A DNA stretch of 64,000 nt from a bacterium (lineage in GTDB: Bacteria; Desulfobacterota; Desulfocorpusculales; Desulfocorpusculum), in contig JBBFLE010000002.1 in NCBI GenBank assembly GCA_037481695.1, forward strand, positions 204,661 to 268,660. The letters are read 5' to 3'. The translations under genes and the position numbers were made by a program. Position 1 is the stretch's first letter. The number at the start of each line of letters is the position of its first letter. Below the pieces are notes generated by a model. The model was given only the letters and a program-made list of their open reading frames with translations. It did no database searches and was not told the DNA's origin. This document shows positions 37,861-50,147 of this stretch, piece by piece.

Positions 37861-40800
37861 TCAGAAAAGCACTCTGATCCAGATGGACACCTGCCTTGCT
37901 GGGATGCCCTTTTCACCCACCAGTTCCCATGTTTTAAGCCTGAAGGGCTGATTCCAAAGGTTGCGGGCCATCAATTTCACCGAGCAGCGCCTTCCCCAAA
38001 GGAACTTCTCCAGTTCCAGGTCTGTCCAGGAAGCCTTCTGTGTTCTGCCATAAAGCCCCAGATCTCCCAGTTGAAGCACCCCTGTTTCCCTCAGGAGAAA
38101 CTTCCATCCTGCTGGGTGTATCCATCTCAGCTCCAGGATGCCCCTGTGTTCTGTCCAGGACTCCCCCGGCCAGGTGTCCCAATGTTTCTTTACCTCCTCC
38201 CAAGCTCCGCATCTGTAACCGTATCTTCCCACCAAGGACACGCTGGGGGTCAGAAGAAGTTCCACTTCTCCCTGGGCTCTCCAATCCCGGAGGGTCCTGG
38301 CTTGAAAGCCTCTGACATCCGATGCCTGTTCCCAAGTCCTGTGATGGCGAACCCCCAACTCCACATGTGTAGAAAGAGCCTCTGACCACATTCGATCCCA
38401 GGCCATCCTGGCCTCGGTGTTCAATGAACCGCCCGCCGTATCTTCCCCCAAAGCAAAGCCAGCCACCTCCACGGGTTGCAATCCCTCAACCAGGGTATAG
38501 GGAGACTCCAGGTACCTGGCTGCAGCCAAGCGCAGGAGATCCCGGCCTCCTGCTCTCCAGACAATGCCCAGCCGTGGCCCGAGACAGACCCGCTTTTGCC
38601 TCTCATCCGATACTACCGGAGGACTGCTTCCCATGCTTGCTACCTGGAAGTTAACACTTCCTTCCAAATACAATTCGGGAATGATTTCCCAAATGTCCCC
38701 TGCGTGCATTTCCCACATGTACGTGGGCACCTCCAGCGCCTTGTCCTGCAAAACCCTTCCCAGCAAAGCCCCCCCATACCTGAAGCTGGTCAAGACCCAC
38801 GGCTCCAGCCTTTCCCTTCCCCTGGCCCCGTGCATGCCCCATTCCAAGCGGTGACTGCCCCACCTGCTCATGCCAAGCAGGCCTGCCTGGAAATGCTCCT
38901 CCTTGAATCGCCAATTCAGGTCCATGTGGGCCTCTATGGCAGGAGGAACTGTGAACCACAGATGGTCTTCCAGACGGAATCCCTGGCTGCTCCAGATCCC
39001 GTAACTCAGAAGCTCCTGTTTGGGACCCAGGTGCAGCCTGTGGCCCAGTGTGGCTGTATGCACATGTCCCCGCTGATTAAGGTACGGGTCTTGAATCCAC
39101 TCGGCATCAGCGTCCCCGCTGTGGTCCCCGCGGGCCCACAGCATGGACCCCCAACGAAACAAGAGCTCTTGGGATGGATCCAGAGAGATCTTCCAGTCGG
39201 TTCTCCAGTAATGGTCCCTTTCTCGGTGGTTCTCCTTGTGAAAGCCCTTTTCCTCCTGAGCCCATATCAGCAGATCCCCTGCAGTCCTGGATGTGCCGCC
39301 TTGGAGAAAGAGATTGGAATTCCAAAGCCCCAACTCCCCCATTGCACCCTCTAGCTCCCCTTGAATCCTGGGACCTTCGAACATGACCGTATAGTCATGA
39401 AAGGTGTTAAAGGTATTCACGTTGGCTGGGGCCAGCATCTGAGCTCTCAGAAGTTCGCGAATTCCAGCCCTGGCCTTCCCTTCTTCCCTAAAGGGAGTCG
39501 AGAGAAAAAGCCTGGCGCTGGAATTGGTGGGATCTTCCCTCACCGACAAAATGGCATGTGCTTTTGCCCGGGACAGAAGGCCCAGTTCCCTGTATGCCTG
39601 GGCCAAATCCACGTTTCTGACTGCCCGATCCTGATCCAACAAAAACCTGGAGCGGTAAACGGACCTGCTGTTATTTCTGGCCATGGAATTTTCCAGGGCC
39701 CGCACAGCATCCGCCGGCCTGTGCAAATCCCTCAGTATCAAGGCCTGGTACAGATAGGGGGTTGGATCCATGGGGTCCAGCTCAGCCGCTCTATTCAAAA
39801 CCACAAGCGCTTCCCTGTGACGTCCTAGCTGGTGCAGGGATTTCCCCAGATAGCTAAGGGGCAAAGAAGCCATGGGCTCTACCAGTGAAGCCGACAAGAA
39901 CTCTTCCAAGGCCTTTTCAGCACTTCCTTCTCGCATTTCCAAGATGCCTAGGCCCATGTGAGCCTCGCTGGAAAAAGGCTCCAACTCAAGGGCTGCTTGG
40001 AGCTTTTCCCTGGCCTTGAGATGCTCACCCACTGCCAAGAGCATGAAACCCTTGAGCACCAGGATGCCTGAATTACCAGGGCTAAAGAGCTCTGCTAGCT
40101 CCAGGAAGCCCCTGGCTTCCTTGGATCTTCCCATACCCCATGACAGCTCAGCCGCCTGTATCAGGGCCGGCACGTACCTTGGATCCCTCTCCAAAACATT
40201 CAATACTGCCTCGAGGGCCCCCTCCAGATCTCCCTCTGACCTGAGGATGACAGCTCTGGCAAGTTGCGCGGTGGGGGAACCGGCATATACTTGCAGGGCC
40301 TTGCCTGAGAGCGCCTCGGCTCTAGCCGGATCTTTCTGGACCAATGCCATCAAAGATCGTTGGGCAATTACCAAGGCTGGCAGCTCCTCCTCCAAGCCAT
40401 CTGGACCGCCCAACTTCTTAAGGGCTTCGTCCATTTCCCCCATGCCAAGACTGGCTATGCCCCAAAGGCTGTCAAACAACCTGCTCCATCCCCACATGAC
40501 CTGGCCCTCCAACAAGAGCTCCCTGGCCTCCTGAAAAAGACCTTGTTGGATCCTCCCCAATGCCAGGCCTGCCCATTTCAGCCCCAAGTTGGAGGGCAAG
40601 GCTTCAAATTTTTCTTGAGCTTCTTGCCCTTTGCCTTGATCCATGAGAATCCAGGCCAGCAAAAGCTTAGCCATGGGATCGGCCAGTTGCTCCTGGCACA
40701 AATCCATGGCCTTTTGAGTCTCCCCAGCATTCCTGGCTTCCAAGGCCTGGAGGAGCCCCTCAGGCCATGTTTCCTCCTCTTCCAGACGCACATCCAAAGG

Positions 40801-41472
40801 GCTGATCCATATGGGATGTCTCAAGACCCATTGAACACTCTGTGCAGGGTGAAGCCTCAGACTTTCTATTCTGGGAGGTCTTGCAGGGCTCAGGCTGGCC
40901 TTCTGCCCTGAATCCAGTACGGTCTGGCCCCAGGCGTGGATTAGGTACACCTGGCCTGCCAGGATCCATATCTCTCCTTCTCCCGAATACTCATCCAGCA
41001 TGAGGCCCATGTCAGTTCCTCTCACTCCCACCATCACACTTCCCACTTCCCAGTCCACAGGATGCAGCGCCCTGACCCATACCCGTCCTCCAAGAAGCTT
41101 GTAAAGGCTCTGGGGGGGCTTGAAAAAGCCTTGCCGGCTGCCTGCCTTTTGCACTTGGAACCCAACTTTTCCCATGCGTTTTATCTGGATGCGGCTTTGC
41201 TCGTGGAGCTGTACCTGGGTTTGGTCCTGGAAAAGGAGGGCGGCACGAGCCCCTTTAGCTGTTACCACCATATCCCCTTCTGCCAAAGACATGCCTGTCC
41301 TGGCCTTTACCCAGGGTCCTTGGGACGAGGAGGCCACCAGCACCTCCCCCTGGATGTGGACTATCTTTCCCTGAAACTCCTGGGCCCGGGCAGTTGACAG
41401 AGGCAAAAGAATCATCAACAGGCTCGCAACGCAAGCCATTGCCTTTTGCCCTGAAATGGAGGCACCCCACAT
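37861..41472 (-). CDS. Giant FecR-TPR-outer-membrane beta-barrel protein
   Basis: This roughly 1,200-residue exported protein has three recognisable parts. A signal peptide (ACVASLLMILLPLSTARAQ) is followed by a FecR-type domain (VHIQGEVLV, EGDMVVTAKGARAALLFQDQT, VRGTDMGLMLDE). A long TPR array comes next (about residues 230-700; ALILRSEGDLEGALEAV-type and MGLGILEMREGSAEKALEEF-type helices). The C-terminal 450 residues are rich in alternating aromatic or hydrophobic residues and end KLMARNLWNQPF... with a terminal Phe, as in TonB-receptor-like barrels. It may be a secretion porin with periplasmic scaffold. The start is uncertain: ATGs at 41472, 41505 and one further in all lack good ribosome sites. 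Confidence 0.8.
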   Translation of the reverse strand: MWGASISGQKAMACVASLLMILLPLSTARAQEFQGKIVHIQGEVLVASSSQGPWVKARTGMSLAEGDMVVTAKGARAALLFQDQTQVQLHEQSRIQIKRMGKVGFQVQKAGSRQGFFKPPQSLYKLLGGRVWVRALHPVDWEVGSVMVGVRGTDMGLMLDEYSGEGEIWILAGQVYLIHAWGQTVLDSGQKASLSPARPPRIESLRLHPAQSVQWVLRHPIWISPLDVRLEEEETWPEGLLQALEARNAGETQKAMDLCQEQLADPMAKLLLAWILMDQGKGQEAQEKFEALPSNLGLKWAGLALGRIQQGLFQEARELLLEGQVMWGWSRLFDSLWGIASLGMGEMDEALKKLGGPDGLEEELPALVIAQRSLMALVQKDPARAEALSGKALQVYAGSPTAQLARAVILRSEGDLEGALEAVLNVLERDPRYVPALIQAAELSWGMGRSKEARGFLELAELFSPGNSGILVLKGFMLLAVGEHLKAREKLQAALELEPFSSEAHMGLGILEMREGSAEKALEEFLSASLVEPMASLPLSYLGKSLHQLGRHREALVVLNRAAELDPMDPTPYLYQALILRDLHRPADAVRALENSMARNNSRSVYRSRFLLDQDRAVRNVDLAQAYRELGLLSRAKAHAILSVREDPTNSSARLFLSTPFREEGKARAGIRELLRAQMLAPANVNTFNTFHDYTVMFEGPRIQGELEGAMGELGLWNSNLFLQGGTSRTAGDLLIWAQEEKGFHKENHRERDHYWRTDWKISLDPSQELLFRWGSMLWARGDHSGDADAEWIQDPYLNQRGHVHTATLGHRLHLGPKQELLSYGIWSSQGFRLEDHLWFTVPPAIEAHMDLNWRFKEEHFQAGLLGMSRWGSHRLEWGMHGARGRERLEPWVLTSFRYGGALLGRVLQDKALEVPTYMWEMHAGDIWEIIPELYLEGSVNFQVASMGSSPPVVSDERQKRVCLGPRLGIVWRAGGRDLLRLAAARYLESPYTLVEGLQPVEVAGFALGEDTAGGSLNTEARMAWDRMWSEALSTHVELGVRHHRTWEQASDVRGFQARTLRDWRAQGEVELLLTPSVSLVGRYGYRCGAWEEVKKHWDTWPGESWTEHRGILELRWIHPAGWKFLLRETGVLQLGDLGLYGRTQKASWTDLELEKFLWGRRCSVKLMARNLWNQPFRLKTWELVGEKGIPARQVSIWIRVLF

Positions 41473-42433
41473 TGGGCTCAACCGGCAACTTATTTTCTGA
41501 AGCATGAGTAGGTGATAGGCAATTGGTAATTCAAAGCCCGGCTTGATGTCAAGAAAAAATGGATCACATGAGCATTTCCGAGAATATTGATTGACAATCT
41601 CTAAGGCAGGTTCTATCTTAGCAATCAATGGGTGCAAATACCCAAGGCAAGGGCGCCAGAGGAAGCATATGGCTTTTGTTGGAAAGCTCTCCAGAAAAAA
41701 AATGAGATGGGTCAGTATGTTTGCGGCTGGGTGGCTTTGCATCTGGCTCTTGCAGGTTCCCCCAGCCCTTCAAGAAGCTCCTTGCAACTCATTAGAGGCC
41801 ATTTTATTTCCGCTGCAAGACCCAGCAGAGTGCTGCTGTCAAGGTAAAGATCCAGAAAACCTCTCTCACCCTCCTTGTGGTTCACATCAAAGTTGCAGTA
41901 GCCCTTCCATCCCGGAATCAGGAAAGCTCCTTTTCGCTCACACTTCTTCGGGCCAACAGTTTCCCCAGACAGAGTGTCTCTCTGAGAAGGCTTTCTTGAC
42001 CGGGTCTTTTCAAAACCTCAATCCATTGTCTTACAAGCCGTGCAAGACACCTAGACAAGTGTACCTCTTGAATCAGATTCTGCTTATTTGAATTCCTACT
42101 CATGCATTCCAAAAATCTGCCAGGCAACCCATGCTCCTTGAACTGTCGATCTGAGGCCTGGATCATTAGCCCTTACTGTTTATGAGCAGCGGTTTTCAGG
42201 TAGGCTTGGCCTACCCTGTGAGGGCAAAAAGAATGATCCTGTGGGTCAAGGCTGATGAGCCTGGCATAGGAGTTTGGGCCCAAAGCATATCTGTCCAAGC
42301 ATGGTCAGAAACGCTATTGGGGACTTGTTGGAGTCCGCATCAGGTGGAGGGTTCTCATTTGGGTTTTCTAAGATGGCCTTCCATCTGTAAGTGGTAAAGG
42401 ACAAGAAAACAAATTCTTGGGAGGAGTAACTCC
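41473..42433. other. Long intergenic region between the FecR-TPR gene and the DUF2318 gene
   Basis: This stretch of about 960 bases has no convincing gene. Several frames of 70-166 codons exist on both strands, but none has a recognisable domain or good start context. It must hold the promoters for both divergent genes. AT-rich stretches occur around 41570-41620 and 42080-42120. A perfect 7-bp inverted repeat lies at 42199-42215. It could contain a degraded gene or an unrecognised regulatory RNA. Confidence 0.35.
42199..42215. repeat. Perfect inverted repeat upstream of the DUF2318 gene
   Basis: GGTAGGC-TTG-GCCTACC is a perfect 7-bp inverted repeat with a 3-nt centre, about 220 nt before the DUF2318 start. 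It could be an operator or a small hairpin in a leader RNA. No known motif (for example a Fur box) was recognised. Confidence 0.4.
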
Positions 42434-42991
42434 ATGGAAGATTCTAAGAGCATGAAAGACTCTTGTGGCAAGACCGCTTATGAAAATGGGCACAGGAGGC
42501 ACAATAGACTCTCTCGGAGTGGGATGAGAGCTGTTTTGCAAATTCTCATTGCAGGGGTGGCCACATTGGGCCTTACATCTGGATGCTTTTCCCCTGGGGA
42601 TTCATCCTCTTCACCCCAGGTCAAGGGAGACCAGTGGCGGCTTTCGATTAAGGACTTTCAGGAGGGCAAGGCCCGCCACTTCCATTACAGATTAGCTGAC
42701 AATACCACAGTTAGGTTCTTCCTCATCAAGACCTCTGACGGGACCTTTCGGGCCGCACTGGATGCTTGTGATGTTTGTTGGCCGCAGGGAAAGGGATATG
42801 TTCAGGATGGGAATTACATGGTCTGCAAGAACTGCGGACGTACATTCCGGAATCAAGACATAGGGCTGTACAGAGGGGGCTGCAATCCACACCCCTTGCA
42901 GTCCCGGCTTGAGGGAAAGGAGTTGGTGATAGAGCTGAAGGAGCTTCAGGAAGGCGCAAGATACTTCAGATCCACCAACCAGGTTTATTAG
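42434..42991 (+). CDS. DUF2318-domain lipoprotein (P19-type iron system component-like)
   Basis: This 185-residue protein has a long charged N-region, a hydrophobic segment ending in a lipobox-like TSGC and a DUF2318 domain. The domain is marked by four cysteines in a zinc or Fe-S-like pattern: DACDVCWPQGKGYV, MVCKNCGRTF, then GGCNPHPL. DUF2318 proteins occur in P19/FtrABCD-like iron-uptake clusters (Cj1660 in Campylobacter), next to FtsX-type permeases, an ABC ATPase and thioredoxins, exactly the genes that follow here. Their biochemical role is unproven. GGAGG lies 9 nt before the ATG. The first gene in its cluster; no p19 or FTR1-like gene is visible. Confidence 0.88.
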   Translation: MEDSKSMKDSCGKTAYENGHRRHNRLSRSGMRAVLQILIAGVATLGLTSGCFSPGDSSSSPQVKGDQWRLSIKDFQEGKARHFHYRLADNTTVRFFLIKTSDGTFRAALDACDVCWPQGKGYVQDGNYMVCKNCGRTFRNQDIGLYRGGCNPHPLQSRLEGKELVIELKELQEGARYFRSTNQVY

Positions 42992-43193
42992 CCATGGCCC
43001 ATAAAGTTGGGGGCTACGCCCAAAGCCCCAGTCACATGGAGTTGCTCTAAGGTGAAAAACCAGGGGGAAACCACAGAGTGAAGAACCAGAGTGCATTTGA
43101 TCAGGACAACATTTATCACAGAATATCAATAAGTTAGCCTGAATCTTTCACTCATCGTGAATGATGCGGGCTATTTGGGGGGGGTAGCAGATC

Positions 43194-44360
43194 ATGAAGA
43201 TGCAGGACATGGTCTGGAAAAGACTTCAGAGAAAAAAGGCCAAAGCCTTGTTTGTGCTCCTGGGTCTTTTGATAGGCGTGGGGGCTGCTGTGGGCTTTCT
43301 AAGCCTCACCCGTGCCCTCACTATGGAGATACAGCACAAGATGGAGCTTTACGGGGCCAATATCCTGATAACCCCTGCCACAGACAACCTCTCCTTGTCT
43401 TTCGGGGGAATTACCTTGGGGAGCATTTCCTTTGACATGAAGGAACTCCAGCAGAAGGAATTGGGAAATCTCTTGAGCATTCCCAATGCTCGCAATATAG
43501 CTGCCGTGGGCCCCATGCTGCTGGGAGCTGTGGCACATGGGGACAGAAGGCTTATTCTGGCCGGCATGGAATTCAGCTCCTTGGGCGCCCTTAGGCCCTG
43601 GTGGAGAATAAATGGGGAGTATCCTACTCAGGGTCAGGTAGTACTGGGAGCAGAGGCTGCAAGAATAATGGGTTTGAAGCCGGGGGAGGAATGGTCCATT
43701 CTGGGATCCAGATGGAAGATCTCTGGGGTCCTTGAGCCCACCGGGTCCCAGGAGGATCTGATGGCTTTCGCCCCTCTCTCAGAGGTTCAATCGGCCCTTG
43801 GGAAAGAGGGAAAAATAAGCATGGTGGAGGTGGCGGCCCTTTGCGCGGGATGCCCCATAGAAGAGATGGTGGCCCAGATTTCAAAGGTGCTGCCAGAGGC
43901 TAGGGTGCAGGCCATCAAACAGGTGGTGGAGGGTCGCATTGAAGCCATGAAACAAATGCAAAGGGTGGCCATGGGTCTTTCGGGGCTGGTGCTCTTGGTG
44001 GGATCCCTGGTGGTGTTTGTCACCATGATGGCCAGTGTAAGAGAGCGTACATCAGAGATAGGAGTTCTGGGAGCCATTGGATTTCCCAAGAAACAAATCG
44101 CAAAACTCATTCTCACGGAAGCAGCAGTCCTCTCTTTCTTGGCCGGAATTCTGGGATATGGCATTGGCATGCTTTCGGCCAAGGTGGCCTTACCATTTTT
44201 CTCAGAGGGGCACTCCCACAGTGCAGCCCATCTTCTTTTCCAGCCGGAGCTGGCCTTGGGGGCTGTGGCCCTTTCAACTGGCTTGGGGCTTCTGGCCAGC
44301 CTTTACCCTGCTTTGGCCGCATCCAGATTGGATCCTGCGGAGGCCATTCGCAGCCACTAG
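43194..44360 (+). CDS. FtsX/MacB-type ABC transporter permease
   Basis: This 388-residue permease has an N-terminal membrane helix (KALFVLLGLLIGVGAAVGFL), a large periplasmic MacB-PCD-like domain (about residues 45-240) and three C-terminal helices forming the FtsX domain (GLSGLVLLVGSLVVFVTMM; TEIGVLGAIGFPKKQI coupling helix). Type VII ABC systems of this kind use mechanotransmission rather than classical transport. In the Campylobacter P19 cluster two such permeases are present; here there is one. It is followed by its ATPase. ATG 43194 or 43200 could be the start; both lie behind a G-rich tract. Confidence 0.92.
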   Translation: MKMQDMVWKRLQRKKAKALFVLLGLLIGVGAAVGFLSLTRALTMEIQHKMELYGANILITPATDNLSLSFGGITLGSISFDMKELQQKELGNLLSIPNARNIAAVGPMLLGAVAHGDRRLILAGMEFSSLGALRPWWRINGEYPTQGQVVLGAEAARIMGLKPGEEWSILGSRWKISGVLEPTGSQEDLMAFAPLSEVQSALGKEGKISMVEVAALCAGCPIEEMVAQISKVLPEARVQAIKQVVEGRIEAMKQMQRVAMGLSGLVLLVGSLVVFVTMMASVRERTSEIGVLGAIGFPKKQIAKLILTEAAVLSFLAGILGYGIGMLSAKVALPFFSEGHSHSAAHLLFQPELALGAVALSTGLGLLASLYPALAASRLDPAEAIRSH

Positions 44361-44565
44361 GCGCCATGATTCCAAAGAAGCGCAAAGTCAGGGTTGTATC
44401 GAGGATATGAATGAATGACTTGATTCATGCTAAAAAGCAAACAGATTGGGGATTTCAGATCCCACCCTGGTTCCAGAGGGATTACCTGGAGGTGCTGTGG
44501 GGTTTCGGGCCTCCCCAATGAGGGGGCTACAGGAGCAATCCAGGCTGGAAATTGGGAGGAGTGAC

Positions 44566-45237
44566 ATGTGCTTGATAAGAGCTGAGGGAATAGTCAAGAG
44601 ATACGGCCATGGGCCTGGTGTGGTGGAGGCTTTAAGAGGCATTGACCTGGAAGTTCCCGAAGGGGATTGGCTGGCCATAATGGGGCGCTCAGGCTCAGGG
44701 AAATCAACGCTTCTGACCGTGTTGGGAGGCTTGAACTCTCCAAGTGGAGGCAATTATTGGGTGGAGGATGTAGAACTCTATTGTCTGCCCCTCCAGCAGC
44801 GAGCCGAGTTCAGAAGGGAGAAGATGGGCTTCGTATTCCAAAGCTTCCAGCTTCTGGACTATCTTTCAGCCATAGAAAATGTAATGCTACCTTTGGTGAA
44901 CAGCCCCATGCCTTCCCGCCGAAAGAAGCAACTGGCCAGGGAGGCCCTGGAAAAGGTGGGCCTGTACCACAAGGGATCAAGGCTGCCTGCCCAGCTCTCA
45001 GGAGGAGAACAGCAGAGAGTGGCCATTGCAAGGGCCATAGTGAACCGTCCAGTGCTTCTTCTTGCGGACGAGCCTACAGGCAATTTGGATTCAGCCACTG
45101 CCGAGCAAGTCATGGAGCTCTTCGGGGAGCTCAACAGTCAAGGAATGACAATAGTGATGGTCACCCACAGCGAGCAGTGGGCAGCCATGGCAAAAAGGAT
45201 CACAAGAATATCCGATGGTCGCGTGATGGGAAATTAG
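44566..45237 (+). CDS. ABC transporter ATP-binding protein (LolD/MacB-type)
   Basis: This 223-residue ATPase has Walker [11 protein letters not shown]-loop VFQSFQLL, signature LSGGEQQR, Walker [13 protein letters not shown] and H-loop VTHS. It belongs to the LolD/FtsE/MacB group that partners FtsX-like permeases, fitting the gene just upstream. The start at 44566 has GGGAGGAG upstream; a longer frame from 44446 adds non-family sequence. It is followed at 64 nt by the selenocysteine thioredoxin gene. Confidence 0.94.
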
Positions 45238-45300
45238 TTGGTGCACCCCATGCTCCTTGGGGAGCCTGTTTTCTGAGTCTCAATGATGAGGGAGGATGAA

Positions 45301-45840
45301 ATGAAACGTGTTGTTCTATGGGGCCTGATCTTACTGGGAGGGCTCTTTTTTTGGATGTGGCTTCGAGGGGGATTGGTCAACTCAGGGCTCAGAAGCCCAC
45401 GAGAGCTCTTCCCTTCGGCACATCGCCAATCAGCCCCTGAGATCCTGGTCAGGGATTTGGGCGGTACAACGGCCAGCATCCCAGGGCAGCTCCGAGGGCC
45501 TGCATTGGTGGTTTTCTGGGCCAGTTGGTGACCGGCCTGCAGGAGGGAGTTGCCTTCCTGGGAAAAGCTATATAAGGAGGTGGGGGATCAACCCATCCGG
45601 CTCATTGCAGTGGCGGTCAGAGACAGCAAGAATGAACTCAGAAGGCTCGTGGCTGGGGAGGGCTTGACTCTGCCTGTTTTTCTGGATGAGCTTGGGAACT
45701 CTGCTTCCAGTTGGGGTGTTAGGGCTCTGCCCACTGCAGTTTATTTGGATCATGGCGGAAGGCTGGCGGGCAGGTTCGTAGGCCCCCAGAGCTGGGACAA
45801 GGAGACACTTCTAAAACTGGCCCAAGAAGACATGAAATGA
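45301..45840 (+). CDS. Selenocysteine-containing thioredoxin-like (TlpA/ResA-type) protein
   Basis: This is one reading frame of 179 residues interrupted only by TGA at 45529-45531, read here as Sec77. The context is FWASW-U-PAC-RRELPSW, the thioredoxin active site WCxxC with the first Cys replaced by Sec. Downstream the fold continues in the same frame (IRLIAVAVRDSKNELRRL, LPVFLDELG, cis-Pro in VRALPTAVYLD). An N-terminal membrane anchor (VVLWGLILLGGLFFWMWL) places the domain in the periplasm. A SECIS-like hairpin lies directly after TGA. GGGAGG precedes ATG 45301. The alternative, a nonsense mutation at exactly this codon, is much less likely. It may serve the adjacent DUF2318/ABC system as reductant. 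Confidence 0.9.
45529..45560 (+). promoter_or_regulatory. UGA selenocysteine codon with bacterial SECIS-like hairpin
   Basis: The TGA (45529-45531) is followed by CAGGAGGG (45540-45547), a 5-nt loop AGTTG (45548-45552) and CCTTCCTG (45553-45560). This gives an 8-bp stem with one G-U pair. The apical loop contains GU and lies 17-21 nt after the UGA, the spacing expected for SelB-binding bacterial SECIS elements. Confidence 0.75.
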
Positions 45841-45936
45841 GGGGAAGTCTCCCTTGGCCTTGTTTGCAGAATTGACAGGAGTCCACTCCCTCACCTAGAA
45901 TCCCCCTAATTAGGCAGGGGAATCTGGAGGAAGATC

Positions 45937-46509
45937 ATGATTAAGCTCTTGGCCGTGCAGGGTAGTCCTCGAAAGGGCGGTAACACAGAGATCCTGCTGG
46001 AGAAGGCCATAGAAGGGGCTTTGGCCGCTGGTGCCCAGGTCAAGAAGGTTGAGCTTAGGCTGCTTCATATAACACCTTGCCTTGAAATCTATGAATGTAA
46101 GAAAACCGGGCTTTGCCCCATCCAAGACGACATGACTCCGCTTTACTCGGAGATAGACTCTTCTAACAGACTCATTCTGGCCTCGCCCATATTCTTTTAC
46201 AGTGTCACAGCCCATGCCAAGGCTTTTATAGACAGGTGCCAGGCCGGATGGGCCCGCAGATATGTTCTTGGCAGGCGTGTGGAGTCCCCTGTGGCAAGAA
46301 AGGGCGCCTTCATATCTGTGGGAGCCACCAGGGGCAAGAAGCTCTTTGAGGGTGTGAAGCTAACCGTCAAGTATTTCTTCGACGCACTGGACATGGAGTA
46401 TGCCGAGGAATTGCTGGTGAGAGGGGTGGACGAGAAAGGTGAGATCCTCAATTATCCTGAGCACCTTCAGGCGGCTTACGAGCTGGGAAGGCGCATGGGC
46501 ACTCCCTGA
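45937..46509 (+). CDS. NADPH-dependent FMN reductase / flavodoxin-fold iron-sulfur flavoprotein-like
   Basis: This 190-residue flavodoxin-fold protein begins LLAVQGSPRKGGNTEILL, the FMN phosphate loop. It then carries the Cys motif region CLEIYECKKTGLCPIQDDM, seen in iron-sulfur flavoproteins and multimeric flavodoxin reductases; one Cys of the usual CxxCxxC pattern appears missing. ASPIFFYSVTAHAKAFIDR is the flavin-contacting segment. It probably transfers electrons to a quinone, metal or redox partner. GGAGG precedes the ATG. It starts 96 nt after the selenothioredoxin gene and heads a run of DUF2889 and PHP genes. Confidence 0.87.
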   Translation: MIKLLAVQGSPRKGGNTEILLEKAIEGALAAGAQVKKVELRLLHITPCLEIYECKKTGLCPIQDDMTPLYSEIDSSNRLILASPIFFYSVTAHAKAFIDRCQAGWARRYVLGRRVESPVARKGAFISVGATRGKKLFEGVKLTVKYFFDALDMEYAEELLVRGVDEKGEILNYPEHLQAAYELGRRMGTP

Positions 46510-46524
46510 ACAAGAGGTTTCATA

Positions 46525-47010
46525 ATGATCTTGAGCTTCCTCAGGAACAAGGTGATGGACGTGAGCCAGGAAAAAGACGGCTCTCTTAGGGTTTCCTGGA
46601 GACTTACGGACACCTTTTGGGATGCAGCTCTGGAGATAGTTGTAACACTGCCTGATCTCGAGATAAGAGCCGCATCAGGCACCATCCGTAGATCTCCCTA
46701 CAAGCAGTGCAGTTCTGCTCCAGAGCTGCTTTCAAGGGTTGTGGGAGTAAGAGTGGGAGCAGGGTTGAGAAAAATAGTGGAGGGGTTAGTGGGAGGCCCC
46801 TCGGGCTGCCCGGAGCTGGCAGAAGGGGTCTTGGAATGCTGTAATGCCGTGATACTGCACTTTACCGTGCCCCAGCTCCAGGCCACTGAGACAGGTACAG
46901 AGGAGCAAAAAAGGGAGAGCTTCCAGGCCATGCTAAGACTCAATCCCCGCCTGGTGAGAAGCTGTGTGGCCTTTGCCGAGGACAGTCCACTGATGCAAGG
47001 TCTTGTTTGA
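46525..47010 (+). CDS. DUF2889-family protein (first of two)
   Basis: This 161-residue protein of the DUF2889 type has an N-terminal beta part (LRVSWRLTDTFWDAALEIVVTLPDLEI) and the family Cys motif in GPSGCPELAEGVLECCNAV. It is probably cytoplasmic: no signal peptide. GAGGT lies 7 nt before the ATG, 15 nt after the flavoprotein stop, so the two are co-transcribed. The function of the family is unknown. Confidence 0.8.
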   Translation: MILSFLRNKVMDVSQEKDGSLRVSWRLTDTFWDAALEIVVTLPDLEIRAASGTIRRSPYKQCSSAPELLSRVVGVRVGAGLRKIVEGLVGGPSGCPELAEGVLECCNAVILHFTVPQLQATETGTEEQKRESFQAMLRLNPRLVRSCVAFAEDSPLMQGLV

Positions 47011-47089
47011 ATGGGCGTTTGTTTTCTTGGTCCAGTCCCAAGGCGGCAAGCCAGGGCGACTTTGACTTGATCCCAAAGGAGACACCCGG

Positions 47090-47545
47090 ATGATCTCTTT
47101 TAGCAGAACCATGCTCGTGGGAGCCGAATTCCCTCAAGAGGATCTGGTTCGCTTTCACGGAATGCTTGAAGACCGCATATATGCCATGGAAATTCTCATG
47201 GATGTGCGCATATCGGACGGTGTGGTCCAGGCCATTCGAGGCCGGATGAAGAGATTTACGACTCCTGTGTGCCCCAAGGCAGAGGACATATTACAAGTGG
47301 CAGTGGGGATGTCCTTGAGGGAACCAGGCTGGATCTCCAGAATCAATAAGGAAGTGGGCCGAAAGGGCTGCCAGCATTTTGCCGAGATATTGGTGGAGTG
47401 CGGCAGATGCCTGGATGCGGCCTGCATGGCCCATGATGTGTTTGCCAAGATCAAGGAGACTCCGGATGTTGACCCCTCATGGCTGGCTCAGGCTTATAGC
47501 GCTTCCCACCCAGAGCTTTCTGGCAGATGTATGGCCTCACCATAA
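47090..47545 (+). CDS. DUF2889-family protein (second of two)
   Basis: This 151-residue paralogue of the preceding gene has FHGMLEDRIYAMEILMDVRISDGVVQ at the N-terminus and RKGCQHFAEILVECGRCLDAA at the Cys motif. The GC-x(2,3)-[LF]AE-x(2-4)-EC pattern matches that of its neighbour, though overall similarity is modest, which suggests an old duplication or a heteromeric pair. AAGGAG precedes the ATG. It is followed closely by a PHP gene. Confidence 0.8.
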   Translation: MISFSRTMLVGAEFPQEDLVRFHGMLEDRIYAMEILMDVRISDGVVQAIRGRMKRFTTPVCPKAEDILQVAVGMSLREPGWISRINKEVGRKGCQHFAEILVECGRCLDAACMAHDVFAKIKETPDVDPSWLAQAYSASHPELSGRCMASP

Positions 47546-47566
47546 AACTCCATCGTGGGTTTCAGC

Positions 47567-48196
47567 ATGCGAATAGACCTTCATGTGCACACATCCCCAA
47601 GATCTCAGTGCAGCTCCATAGACCCAATACAGCTCATGGAAAGAGCCCAAAGTATTGGGCTTCAAGGCGTTTGTCTCACAGAACATGGAATCATGTGGGA
47701 CAAACAAGAAGTGGAAGAGCTGCAAAGGACTCATGAAAATGTGCGCATATTGCGTGGAATGGAGGTAACCACCAACCAAGGAGATGTGCTTGTATTCGGG
47801 CTCTCGAGGGACATAAAGAACATAGTGCCCATAGAGGAACTCAGAAGGGAGGTCCTGGCTGCAGGGGGCTTCATGGTGGCGGCTCACCCCTTCAGGGGAT
47901 TTCTTCTTTTTGGAATAACTCAACTTCAGGTAAGCCCGGAGCAGGCCTGCCGCAGACCCTTGTTTCAAAATGTGGATGGAGTGGAGATAGGAAACTGCAA
48001 GGTCACCCAACCCGAAAACGAAATGGCAAGACAGGTGGCCCTGAGGCTGGGCCTGGCAAAAGTCGCGGGAAGCGACGCGCATAGTTTGGAAGAGCTGGGA
48101 AGATGGGTAACCGTATTTCAGAGGGAAATAAGAAATGAATTAGAACTGGTGGAGGAGTTGCGTCAGGGACGATTTTCGGTGGAGCAGGCTCTGTAA
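47567..48196 (+). CDS. PHP-domain protein (DNA-polymerase-III-alpha-like phosphoesterase domain)
   Basis: This 209-residue PHP-fold protein has metal-binding motifs DLHVHTSPRSQ, CLTEHGIMW, GMEVTT, AAHPFRGF and the C-terminal GSDAHSLEELGRW. It is shorter than, and different from, the PHP protein at 29880. Members of this short group are probably metal-dependent phosphoesterases with unknown substrates. The ribosome site before 47567 is weak. It ends the run of flavoprotein and DUF2889 genes. The 262 nt that follow (to 48458) show no convincing gene. Confidence 0.88.
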   Translation: MRIDLHVHTSPRSQCSSIDPIQLMERAQSIGLQGVCLTEHGIMWDKQEVEELQRTHENVRILRGMEVTTNQGDVLVFGLSRDIKNIVPIEELRREVLAAGGFMVAAHPFRGFLLFGITQLQVSPEQACRRPLFQNVDGVEIGNCKVTQPENEMARQVALRLGLAKVAGSDAHSLEELGRWVTVFQREIRNELELVEELRQGRFSVEQAL

Positions 48197-48458
48197 AGGG
48201 GCTGATTGAATCTTCGTGCTATTCTGGAGCTGGAAAGGCTCAAGAACACCGCCAAAGCCGGAAAAATGGGAAATGACTCTTTTGGCCCGAATTATTGAGG
48301 ATTACTGGATGATTCCGCCTGATTTTCCCTATCGGGTCCTTTTCGCTGGTCTGGGCCTGAACATGGGTAAGTGCAGTGAATGGGCAGGGACATGCCCCCC
48401 AACCTCATCCATCATATGGAATCATCCAGCCTAGAAATATTGGATGTCTTCTTGTCCA

Positions 48459-49571
48459 TCAGCCACCCAATATTTTTGATATGAAAAGTACAGGCCTGTA
48501 TTGCCAACCGCTTGAGGTGATCACCTCCACGATGGGCCTTTCAAGCTCCCTTTTGTCAAATCTGTACTCGTAGACCTTTTCAAAACGAATCCTTCCTTCC
48601 CGGAAGGTAAAGCCGTACTGGGCCTCGTACTCCCACTGTGCCAGTGCCACTCCACGGAAGAAATATCCCATCATGGAAAATCCCAGTTCGAGGCCGTCCC
48701 CACTGGACCTGACGGACTTGCCTATGTCCAAGGCCCGGCAAATCTTCTCCTTATCTGACAGTCTGAGCTGTAAGGTCCTTACCTCCTTGACCTTGTTGAG
48801 GGTCATGATGCCTGCCCACTTGGCGTCTGCCAGGCGCCAGGTGGCCTCTAACTTATTGCCTTTTGCTTCCACCACCCTGAACGGGACGTCCTCTTCGTTT
48901 ATTGCCAAGAGCCTTCTTCTGAGCTCCTCTTCGCTTACGGGCTCGATCCCTGGCTTGGCTGGAACCCTCGTTGCCCAGCCTGTCACTCGATTCCAGAGGC
49001 GCAATTGTATTGCTGCGTAAAGAATTGCTAAAATGACCATGTGAGGAATATATGTCTTTGTCCCGAAAAAAGCTGTCAACCAATTGGCCTCTGGGTTGGG
49101 GCGCATGATCCCAGAGCCCTGTATAAGCTTTTCTGCTGAAACAGGGTCCTTGGCTTCAGCGTGAAGGATCACCCGACCTATGCGCTCCACCCTGCCAGCA
49201 ATCCCCTTTTTATGGAGCTCATATGAATGATAACCGGGGCCGCTAAACTGGCTTGTACCGGCCTCCTGTGCCACATTCTTGGAGTAGGTCTCAAAGGATT
49301 GTTTTGCCTGCTTTTCCCCCTCGCACAGGAAAGCCTTTATGGTGCCGCCCTCTTGACGCCCCATCACTGCGGCCACTGCGCCGGGGTAGTGGAATCTCTC
49401 TTTGACTGCAGCCTTTGGAAAGATGCCCGTCAGCTTGCCGGCCTCCATGTTATGGAGGATCTCCTGGTCCAGGATCAGCCTTGGTGGGGCCAAAATTGCT
49501 CCTAGAAACAAAAGTCCGCTTGGTGCCAGTACTGAAGCAAAGAAGTAAAAAAGAGCTATAAATACCCTCAT
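48459..49571 (-). CDS. Uncharacterised membrane-anchored protein
   Basis: I do not recognise this 370-residue protein. It has an N-terminal hydrophobic segment (IALFYFFASVLAPSGLLFLGAIL) and a second one near residue 175-192 (MVILAILYAAIQL). An extracytoplasmic loop of about 145 residues with one Cys lies between them. A C-terminal half of about 175 residues, predicted cytoplasmic, is rich in beta-strand-like segments (LEATWRLADAKWAGIMTLNKVKEVRTLQLRL, FRVVEAKGNK). It reads as a genuine coding region. It is a single gene on its strand with no functional context. Confidence 0.75.
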   Translation of the reverse strand: MRVFIALFYFFASVLAPSGLLFLGAILAPPRLILDQEILHNMEAGKLTGIFPKAAVKERFHYPGAVAAVMGRQEGGTIKAFLCEGEKQAKQSFETYSKNVAQEAGTSQFSGPGYHSYELHKKGIAGRVERIGRVILHAEAKDPVSAEKLIQGSGIMRPNPEANWLTAFFGTKTYIPHMVILAILYAAIQLRLWNRVTGWATRVPAKPGIEPVSEEELRRRLLAINEEDVPFRVVEAKGNKLEATWRLADAKWAGIMTLNKVKEVRTLQLRLSDKEKICRALDIGKSVRSSGDGLELGFSMMGYFFRGVALAQWEYEAQYGFTFREGRIRFEKVYEYRFDKRELERPIVEVITSSGWQYRPVLFISKILGG

Positions 49572-49742
49572 GCTCTCTCAATACCTCAAGTTAGCCTGAA
49601 ATACCACAAATGGCCTTCTTTGATTGGAGAAGAAGAAGAAGAAGTCTGTCAAAATCAAGAATCAGCTCCCTCCTCCCCAAGAGCACGCAAACCCCCAAAT
49701 ACCCACTCTATCTCCTCTTTTCATTTGCTCAAGGAGGTTTTC

Positions 49743-50147
49743 TTAGCGATCTAGCAAATCCAGCCAGTTTTCCAAGATTCTGAGCCTTTCCTTGGTAAGC
49801 TCCACCTGACATTCCATCAGCTCCAGCTTTCCCATGGATCCCTCTGAGAAGTAGCTGTAGCGAGCCCTGCACTCCTCATCGCGAAAACTGATCCATGCCT
49901 TCTGGGCTTTTACGAACAGATCCCGAACATTGGCCTTGCGGTCTTGGGAGGTCTGTTTTGCCGAAGGGCCCAGCTGATCCAGGATACGCCTGTAAAGGTG
50001 GTTCAATTTGGAGTCCAGTTCCTTGTATTTCTTTTCCAGACATTCCAAGATCTCAAGGGTGTTACCATCGCAGTCCGACCCCAGGGCTCCTCCCCAAGGT
50101 ACCAACAGCAAGAGACCCAAACCCGCAGCCAACACAAAGGCCCCCAT
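49743..50147 (-). CDS. LprI-type (lysozyme inhibitor-like) secreted protein
   Basis: This 134-residue protein has a hydrophobic signal sequence (MGAFVLAAGLGLLLLVPWGGALG) followed by a PF07007-like domain. The domain shows the typical Cys and helix pattern: SDCDGNTLEILECLEKKYKELDSKLNHLYRR, then VKAQKAWISFRDEECRARYSYFSEGS and MECQVELTKERLRILE, with four cysteines. Family members are periplasmic or lipoprotein; some inhibit lysozyme. The start at 50147 is chosen because the signal sequence begins there; no good ribosome site is present. The open frame upstream to 50330 is not protein-like. Confidence 0.82.
   Translation of the reverse strand: MGAFVLAAGLGLLLLVPWGGALGSDCDGNTLEILECLEKKYKELDSKLNHLYRRILDQLGPSAKQTSQDRKANVRDLFVKAQKAWISFRDEECRARYSYFSEGSMGKLELMECQVELTKERLRILENWLDLLDR

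Follow-up and report, generated by a model that had tools for sequence, protein, structure and literature searches.

Within a 64,000-nucleotide stretch of contig JBBFLE010000002.1 from a Desulfocorpusculum genome of the phylum Desulfobacterota (hereafter, the window), four plus-strand genes at 42434-45840 encode a DUF2318 protein, an FtsX-type permease, an ATP-binding cassette (ABC) ATPase and a thioredoxin. A first-pass annotation of the window had placed all four genes correctly, strand included, and had overlooked a cysteine-rich open reading frame (ORF) at 41669-42091 on the same strand, which appears to be part of the unit. The DUF2318/FtrD-like periplasmic protein (42434..42991, +; PF10080 FtrD-like, E 9e-31) has a lipoprotein-like N-terminus. 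It is followed by a single MacB/FtsX-type ABC permease (43194..44360, +; FtsX C-terminal domain, 2e-22, plus MacB_PCD, 1e-11) and a LolD/MacB-like ABC ATPase (44566..45237, +; ABC_tran, 6e-32), for which LolD is the best NCBIfam match. Against the curated NCBIfam models for LolD, LolC/E and MacB, neither the permease nor the ATPase reaches the cut-off. The ATPase most likely starts at the ATG at 44566 and the thioredoxin at 45301, each of which is preceded by a Shine-Dalgarno-like stretch.

The DUF2318 protein of the window scores 106.4 bits against PF10080 (curated cut-off 26.3) and is encoded by the sole PF10080 gene of the whole 4.1 Mb genome (completeness rating 100%). It comprises 185 amino acids, has one N-terminal helix in its structural model and lacks the membrane part of the proteins found at P19 loci. 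Five cysteines (C112, C115, C131, C134 and C150) are invariant across 27 sequences. The AlphaFold2 model, in which the predicted local distance difference test (pLDDT) is about 90 or more over residues 61-180, finds its best structural matches among Rieske ferredoxins (Z 9.5, root-mean-square deviation 3.1 Å over 101 residues), and the sequence offset places C112/C115 and C131/C134 on the paired ligand positions of T4moC. Rieske proteins have Cys-x-His and Cys-x2-His as ligands, whereas the window protein displays two Cys-x2-Cys pairs, C112-x2-C115 and C131-x2-C134, and a fifth invariant cysteine. The predicted structure of DUF2318 is a Rieske fold, akin to T4moC and its kin in the placing of the two ligand pairs, in which all four ligand positions are cysteines. 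The word Rieske is absent from the accessible text of both papers on the Campylobacter Fet system (PMC6083913, PMC10783030).

The TlpA/ResA-like, membrane-anchored thioredoxin (45301..45840, +; alternative start 45283) has the active site WASWUPAC, and its match to AhpC-TSA/thioredoxin families runs through one in-frame TGA (45529..45531, +). This TGA aligns with the first cysteine of the CxxC motif of three thioredoxins that stand after the same three genes in other loci (L074, L097 and L135), where the active site reads WATWCPTC or WATWCAAC, and the genome carries a tRNA-Sec (74.6 bits; ARAGORN anticodon tca). By the cysteine alignment and the genomic tRNA-Sec, the reading of the TGA as selenocysteine is well supported, in agreement with the selenothioredoxin of the first-pass annotation. 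A putative hairpin resembling a selenocysteine insertion sequence (8-bp stem, loop AGUUG) lies at 45540..45560 (+) and is of modest stability (z −0.5 to −1.1). In 5 of 85 complete DUF2318-FtsX-ABC triplets, one of the next two same-strand genes beyond the ABC gene encodes a thioredoxin, which is an optional partner of the triplet. A tblastn search of the first 38 relatives, which gave no real match, had made the link to thioredoxin look private to the window, a view overturned by the five cases among 80 named loci.

The ORF overlooked at the head of the cluster (41669..42091, +) encodes a putative exported leader of 140 amino acids that ends in RQVYLLNQILLI-stop and is assigned to the family described below by its slot, end motif and cysteine columns. 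It has a hydrophobic N-terminus, a CCC at residues −86 to −84 counted from the stop and four of the five nearly invariant cysteine columns of our alignment A3; it matches no family in Pfam or NCBIfam. A sigma-70-like promoter (TTGACA-17-TATCTT, 10/12 consensus positions; 41591..41619, +) lies 50 bp before the ORF, although the scan that revealed it returned 3 sites in the region versus 3.1 in shuffles, so the site is weak evidence alone. The same consensus scan of the region gave no promoter-like site before DUF2318. The gap between the leader and DUF2318 (42092..42433, +), a possible control region, is predicted to form an RNA fold of greater stability than its shuffles (z −2.4).

The gene order of the window and the CxxC / CxxC / C pattern of its DUF2318 protein recall the P19 system FetMP-FetABCDEF of Campylobacter jejuni (CJJ81176_1649-1656), as described in the accessible parts of PMC6083913 and PMC10783030, in which DUF2318, FtsX-type permease, ABC ATPase and thioredoxin genes stand in the same order. 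The window locus differs from this system in that it has neither FTR1 nor P19 and carries one FtsX gene instead of two. Furthermore, the DUF2318 counterpart in Fet is a many-helix membrane protein, and a cysteine-rich leader heads the window locus where a Fur box has been reported for Fet in the available portions of the same papers. The first-pass annotation had remarked on the missing FTR1-like and p19 genes and the single FtsX at the locus; the absence extends to the whole 4.1 Mb genome, in which neither P19 (PF10634) nor an FTR1-type permease (PF03239) was found.

PF10080 is present in 35 of 148 relatives. P19 occurs in 2 of these 35 DUF2318-bearing genomes (one strong match and one weak match with an internal stop), FTR1 occurs in 3 of them, and 12 of 395 genomes of the phylum have P19, 11 of these with strong matches. 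Ten of these P19 loci were fetched (L164-L173) in addition to L047, the eleventh strong one. FTR1, P19, a longer DUF2318 protein, two FtsX genes and an ABC gene are found together in L169-L173 and L047, and the DUF2318 proteins of L169-L173 have 414-517 residues, compared to 185 in the window. The other five of the ten fetched loci (L164-L168) carry P19 and FTR1 without DUF2318-FtsX-ABC, so that either half can be found without the other. Among 118 loci searched with queries from L047, P19 was found in L047 alone and FTR1 in L047 and L054; in the latter (G064:C34, 1299-2726, −), a single ORF combines an FTR1-like permease with a DUF2318 domain.

Among 106 fetched loci in which a DUF2318 ORF was called, FtsX and ABC genes adjoin DUF2318 in 85 (84 without L047), 7 of the 106 being duplicates of an earlier locus from another collection, and 10 of the 21 loci without adjoining FtsX and ABC genes end at a contig edge. 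A gene order that recurs in this way is not due to chance. In a tree of 106 FtsX proteins, which is a quick build with long branches, including that of the window, the window protein belongs to a nine-row stand-alone set (support 99) together with L041, L042, L045, L079, L083, L096, L113 and L134, and P19-linked FtsX proteins of the phylum fall in other clades. A scan of an 84,980-species collection yielded 344 relatives of the stand-alone DUF2318 protein, the best 80 of which come nearly all from Desulfobacterota-type metagenome genomes. The two other genomes of the window organism's family are devoid of DUF2318. As a rule, DUF2318-FtsX-ABC loci of the phylum have no P19, and the module is common among bacteria of the sulfate-reducing type; the window locus, judged by its sequence, is not a stripped P19 locus. 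Recurrence of the gene set without p19 had been named by the first-pass annotation as support, and none of the contrary observations that it had named (a second full copy, p19 or FTR1 elsewhere in the genome, an unconserved gene order) was made. These stand-alone loci qualify the statement in the accessible text of PMC6083913 by which nearly all DUF2318 genes belong to P19-type clusters. The listings from searches of the literature available without subscription showed neither a stand-alone DUF2318-FtsX-ABC module nor the leader end described here. In L061-L063 (family f8), a divergent triplet lies beside MnmA-like and ThiI-like sulphur-transfer genes. L124, on a contig binned as Candidatus Altiarchaeales, where misbinning is possible, has the altered order DUF2318-ABC-FtsX.

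In most stand-alone loci, the slot before DUF2318 is occupied by a small, rapidly evolving, unannotated, cysteine-rich ORF with a hydrophobic N-terminus. Under the strict end motif P-[LI]-Y-L-x3-[ST]-[FLI]-L-[CI]-stop, a leader is present in 57 of 105 stand-alone DUF2318 loci, the window counted, and 14 loci have a cysteine-rich ORF with a varied end. The leader lies just past our 450-bp limit in L090 and L113, an HMA or SurA-like protein fills the slot in 13 loci, and the slot is at a contig edge in 6. The leader regular expression matches 20 of 9017 other ORFs in the loci, two of which are the leaders of L090 and L113. The 57 loci contain 55 distinct leaders with a median of 8 cysteines, in which the end motif carries 3.6-3.8 bits of information at P-11, Y-9, L-8 and L-2; the final position, occupied by C or I, carries 2.9 bits, and PxP or PP occurs at residues −17 to −10 in 34 of the 55. 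Synonymous codons vary within the end motif, which shows that the peptide, not the RNA, is conserved. The nonsynonymous rate (dN) is lower than the synonymous rate (dS) in 21 of 22 leader pairs, dS being not computable in the remaining pair, and the leader is thus under purifying selection. No consistent Pfam or NCBIfam family emerged from scans of 52 leaders (one with an N and those with under 4 cysteines were dropped): matches at E 0.1 or better involved one or two sequences and unrelated families, and DUF2946 gave no match at E 0.1. The gap from leader to next gene is 24-432 bp, and 37 of 53 gaps have a bias of C over G (possible Rho sites).

The leader is not confined to the triplet. In L198 (G122:C1, 2893-3336, +), the same type of leader lies 128 bp before an OEP-OEP-CusB-CusA operon; the DUF2318 gene of this genome (G122) is on another contig. 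Three loci of one family (L195-L197) have minus-strand ORFs of the leader type, 129-142 amino acids long, with the same end and cysteine spacing, which precede a dihaem cytochrome c gene in L195 (and, by similarity, in L196) and a membrane protein gene in L197.

The last CC precedes the stop by 78 or 79 residues in 27 of the 51 leaders that have a CC (interquartile range 77-79). A cysteine is present at −69 to −71 in 42 of 53 leaders (about 10 expected), L083 and L094, whose called ORFs are short, being omitted from the 55. The sequence of the intervening spacer is near chance similarity, with a median of 9% identity among 19 leaders at 79 compared to 6.6% when shuffled, and 15 leaders with spacers mutually under 25% identical all have the distance of 79. 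The leader of L198 has its CC at −80 and a cysteine at −69, and the leaders of L195, L196 and L197 have cysteines at −77, −72 and −69. A nascent chain needs about 65-70 residues to span the ribosome, starting at the peptidyl-transferase centre, and SecYEG and to arrive in the periplasm, so that a ruler of this length would read periplasmic metal.

Such properties draw a parallel to CruR/CutF (DUF2946), which, in the accessible parts of PMC9426467 and PMC9973294, are likewise short exported cysteine-bearing ORFs that head metal operons and have a proline-rich conserved C-terminal end; a fixed spacing from the cysteines to the end, often with a long gap to the next gene, is further shared with CruR. 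The two differ in several respects. The present leaders have no DUF2946 match, their consensus end is not the C-terminal RAPP motif of DUF2946 leaders, and they have more cysteines. The Cys and RAPP motifs of CruR keep a distance of 45 residues, give or take one or two, according to the available text of PMC9426467, versus 69-79 residues from the cysteine site to the stop in the leader family. DUF2318 and FtsX are not mentioned in the CutF paper. By analogy, the leader is a candidate nascent-chain metal sensor like CruR/CutF that belongs to a separate family.

The genes around DUF2318 in other genomes are consistent with a role in metal handling. Of 38 DUF2318 places mapped on whole genomes, 8 have an HMA domain at a distance of 3 kb or less (0.16 expected) and 9 have a strong match to CusB-type HlyD_D23 at 10 kb or less (0.24 expected). 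The expectations assume random placing, the cut of this HMA/CusB test (E below 1e-50) was picked after viewing the list, and the 38 places include three of the P19/FTR1 type or with two FtsX genes (G145, G064:C34 and G063:C2) and exclude the weak PF10080 match of G053. On the minus strand of L039, genes for CusA, CusB, ABC, FtsX, DUF2318 and an HMA protein form one row; in L041 and L045, CusA, CusB and two outer-membrane factors are followed by the triplet. Among the curated models, copper/silver CusB gives the highest score for the CusB proteins of L039 and L041, and CusA/CzcA for the L039 pump, in each case below the cut-off. An HMA-SurA-like fusion is encoded beside the triplet in L078, L134 and L036 (by Pfam), in L039 (by HMA alone) and in L083, L103, L140, L081 and L151 (by similarity); HMA joined to a SurA-like domain is an unusual metal-chaperone fusion. 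The nearest relatives of the window in the FtsX tree include the HMA/Cus-type loci L041, L045, L083, L096 and L134. In L040, L076, L099, L102, L111 and L119, the first gene after ABC encodes a small membrane-anchored protein with a CcmH-like stretch (FRCACGGCGELFLIDCTCDM-like); those of L102 and L111 match Pfam CcmH at E 2e-5 to 6e-5, just under the cut-off, that of L076 is unmatched, and the look-alikes in L040, L099 and L119 were judged by eye. The genes nearby suggest efflux of the copper/silver type and heavy-metal domains rather than iron, and an iron role is not supported.

Combining these findings, we propose, with a probability of about 0.5, that the leader ORF, DUF2318, FtsX, the ABC ATPase and the selenothioredoxin form a five-gene operon for a stand-alone periplasmic module that handles a soft metal (most likely copper) and thiol redox, rather than the remnant of a P19 iron importer, with the leader as its sensor. 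DUF2318 would face the periplasm and hold a metal or an iron-sulphur cluster in its Rieske-fold domain. The ABC pair is akin to MacB and LolCDE type transporters in its FtsX C-terminal and MacB_PCD periplasmic domains and in its LolD-like ATPase, and differs from them in its scores under the curated cut-offs and in having DUF2318 as its partner. The class of MacB, LolCDE and FtsEX couples ATP use to periplasmic movement, and the pair may likewise spend cytoplasmic ATP on moving or remodelling DUF2318 or its cargo in the periplasm. The thioredoxin would keep the thiols of DUF2318 reduced or hand the metal on, a role that CcmH-like, MauE-thioredoxin or HMA-SurA proteins may play in relatives. 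The leader would be exported during its own synthesis; by the time translation arrives at the conserved end, the CC-x7-C site, which precedes it by about 70-79 residues, would be just emerging in the periplasm, where binding of metal may alter ribosome pausing and hence, in whichever direction, expression of the downstream genes.

Several observations weigh against this proposal. The DUF2318 gene of the window has no HMA domain or strong CusB gene at a distance of 10 kb or less, so the copper reading rests on kinship, and iron-sulphur, zinc or mercury are alternatives to copper. Thirteen of the 105 loci have neither a leader nor an HMA/SurA protein despite enough upstream sequence (L090 and L113 having been moved out of this group), and leaders also head genes that do not look metal-related, such as the dihaem cytochrome genes of L195-L196. 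Genome-wide, the end pattern by itself is not enriched: the 395 genomes gave 21 matches, as many as the reversed control (21), and only 9 of the matches close a cysteine-rich ORF; as a stand-alone detector, the DNA pattern of the leader end was discarded as unspecific. RNA folding of the leader-to-gene gaps mildly exceeds that of shuffles (mean z −1.14; 15 of 53 below −2), and this structure is suggestive and was not used as proof. The leader of the window has itself diverged, its end lacking P at −11 and having I in place of S/T at −4, and it deviates from the spacing of the family: its last CC is at −85 and the next cysteine at −71. It stands 342 bp from DUF2318, and among the genomes examined no close relative has the locus for comparison. 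Nevertheless, judged by its sequence, the ORF at 41669-42091 is probably a true member of the leader family.

The cysteine-rich ORF could instead be a working product, a secreted metallothionein-like protein or metallochaperone with a conserved C-terminal peptide that docks on DUF2318 or FtsX. Its cysteine content and export by a hydrophobic N-terminus would suit this, as would the HMA or SurA-like metal-chaperone proteins that take its slot elsewhere, but we find the idea doubtful: an unconserved spacer of fixed length fits a ruler over a folded protein, the same end stands before CusBA and cytochrome genes that have no common partner, and the gaps to the next gene are long. A relay of electrons or thiols that serves the maturation of cytochrome c or disulphides instead of metal detoxification, in which a Rieske-like DUF2318 passes electrons and TlpA/CcmH-like partners reduce the targets, is unlikely. 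The predicted fold, the thioredoxin after ABC in 5 loci, the CcmH-like next genes in L102 and L111 with the look-alikes in L040, L099, L119 and L076, and the leader before the dihaem cytochrome in L195 speak for it; most loci, however, have no such partner, and metal-efflux and HMA neighbours occur far above chance.

A reduced P19-like iron uptake module, the label given by the first-pass annotation, would have its iron step supplied by another permease. The gene order is that of the downstream genes of Fet, and Campylobacter fetA-D mutants grow poorly without iron, as reported in the accessible text of PMC10783030. Against this stand the genome without P19 and FTR1, the rarity of P19 in the phylum, the single FtsX and its stand-alone clade, the short DUF2318 protein without a membrane part and the Cus/HMA neighbours, which together make the iron module improbable. 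The further suggestion of the same annotation, that of a distinct metal- or thiol-redox system in the periplasm, agrees with the evidence and matches the stand-alone soft-metal and thiol-redox module proposed here.

The remaining features of the region frame the cluster. A terminator-like stem-loop lies after the thioredoxin stop (45838..45856, +), where the region has 9 such sites versus 6.1 in shuffles. Beyond it come an FMN-reductase gene, which has a promoter-like site to itself at 45872, and then two tandem DUF2889 genes (46525-47545, +). On the other side, a large FecR-TPR protein (37861-41742, −) is encoded divergently from the leader ORF; its listed start is inside the leader region, and its true start is probably near 41470. 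An Rfam scan of 40000-50000 (E limit 5) gave chance-level matches only.

According to the accessible text of PMC10783030, the function and substrate of the ABC part of Fet remain unclear. The occurrence of the core across the phylum without P19 and beside copper-type genes opens the FetABCD-type core to study apart from iron uptake. More speculatively, the leaders may be a new sensor family that guards the periplasmic copper of Desulfobacterota, with the core as an ATP-driven copper and thiol machine; because P19 has a copper site (according to the title of a reference) and copper-type genes neighbour the core here, the core of the P19 system may, as a tentative hypothesis, serve that copper site rather than iron. 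If the leader does stall ribosomes, it would represent a second sequence class of metal-sensing nascent chains, one with a measurable ruler, and would permit a direct test of the distance from the ribosome at which metal is read.

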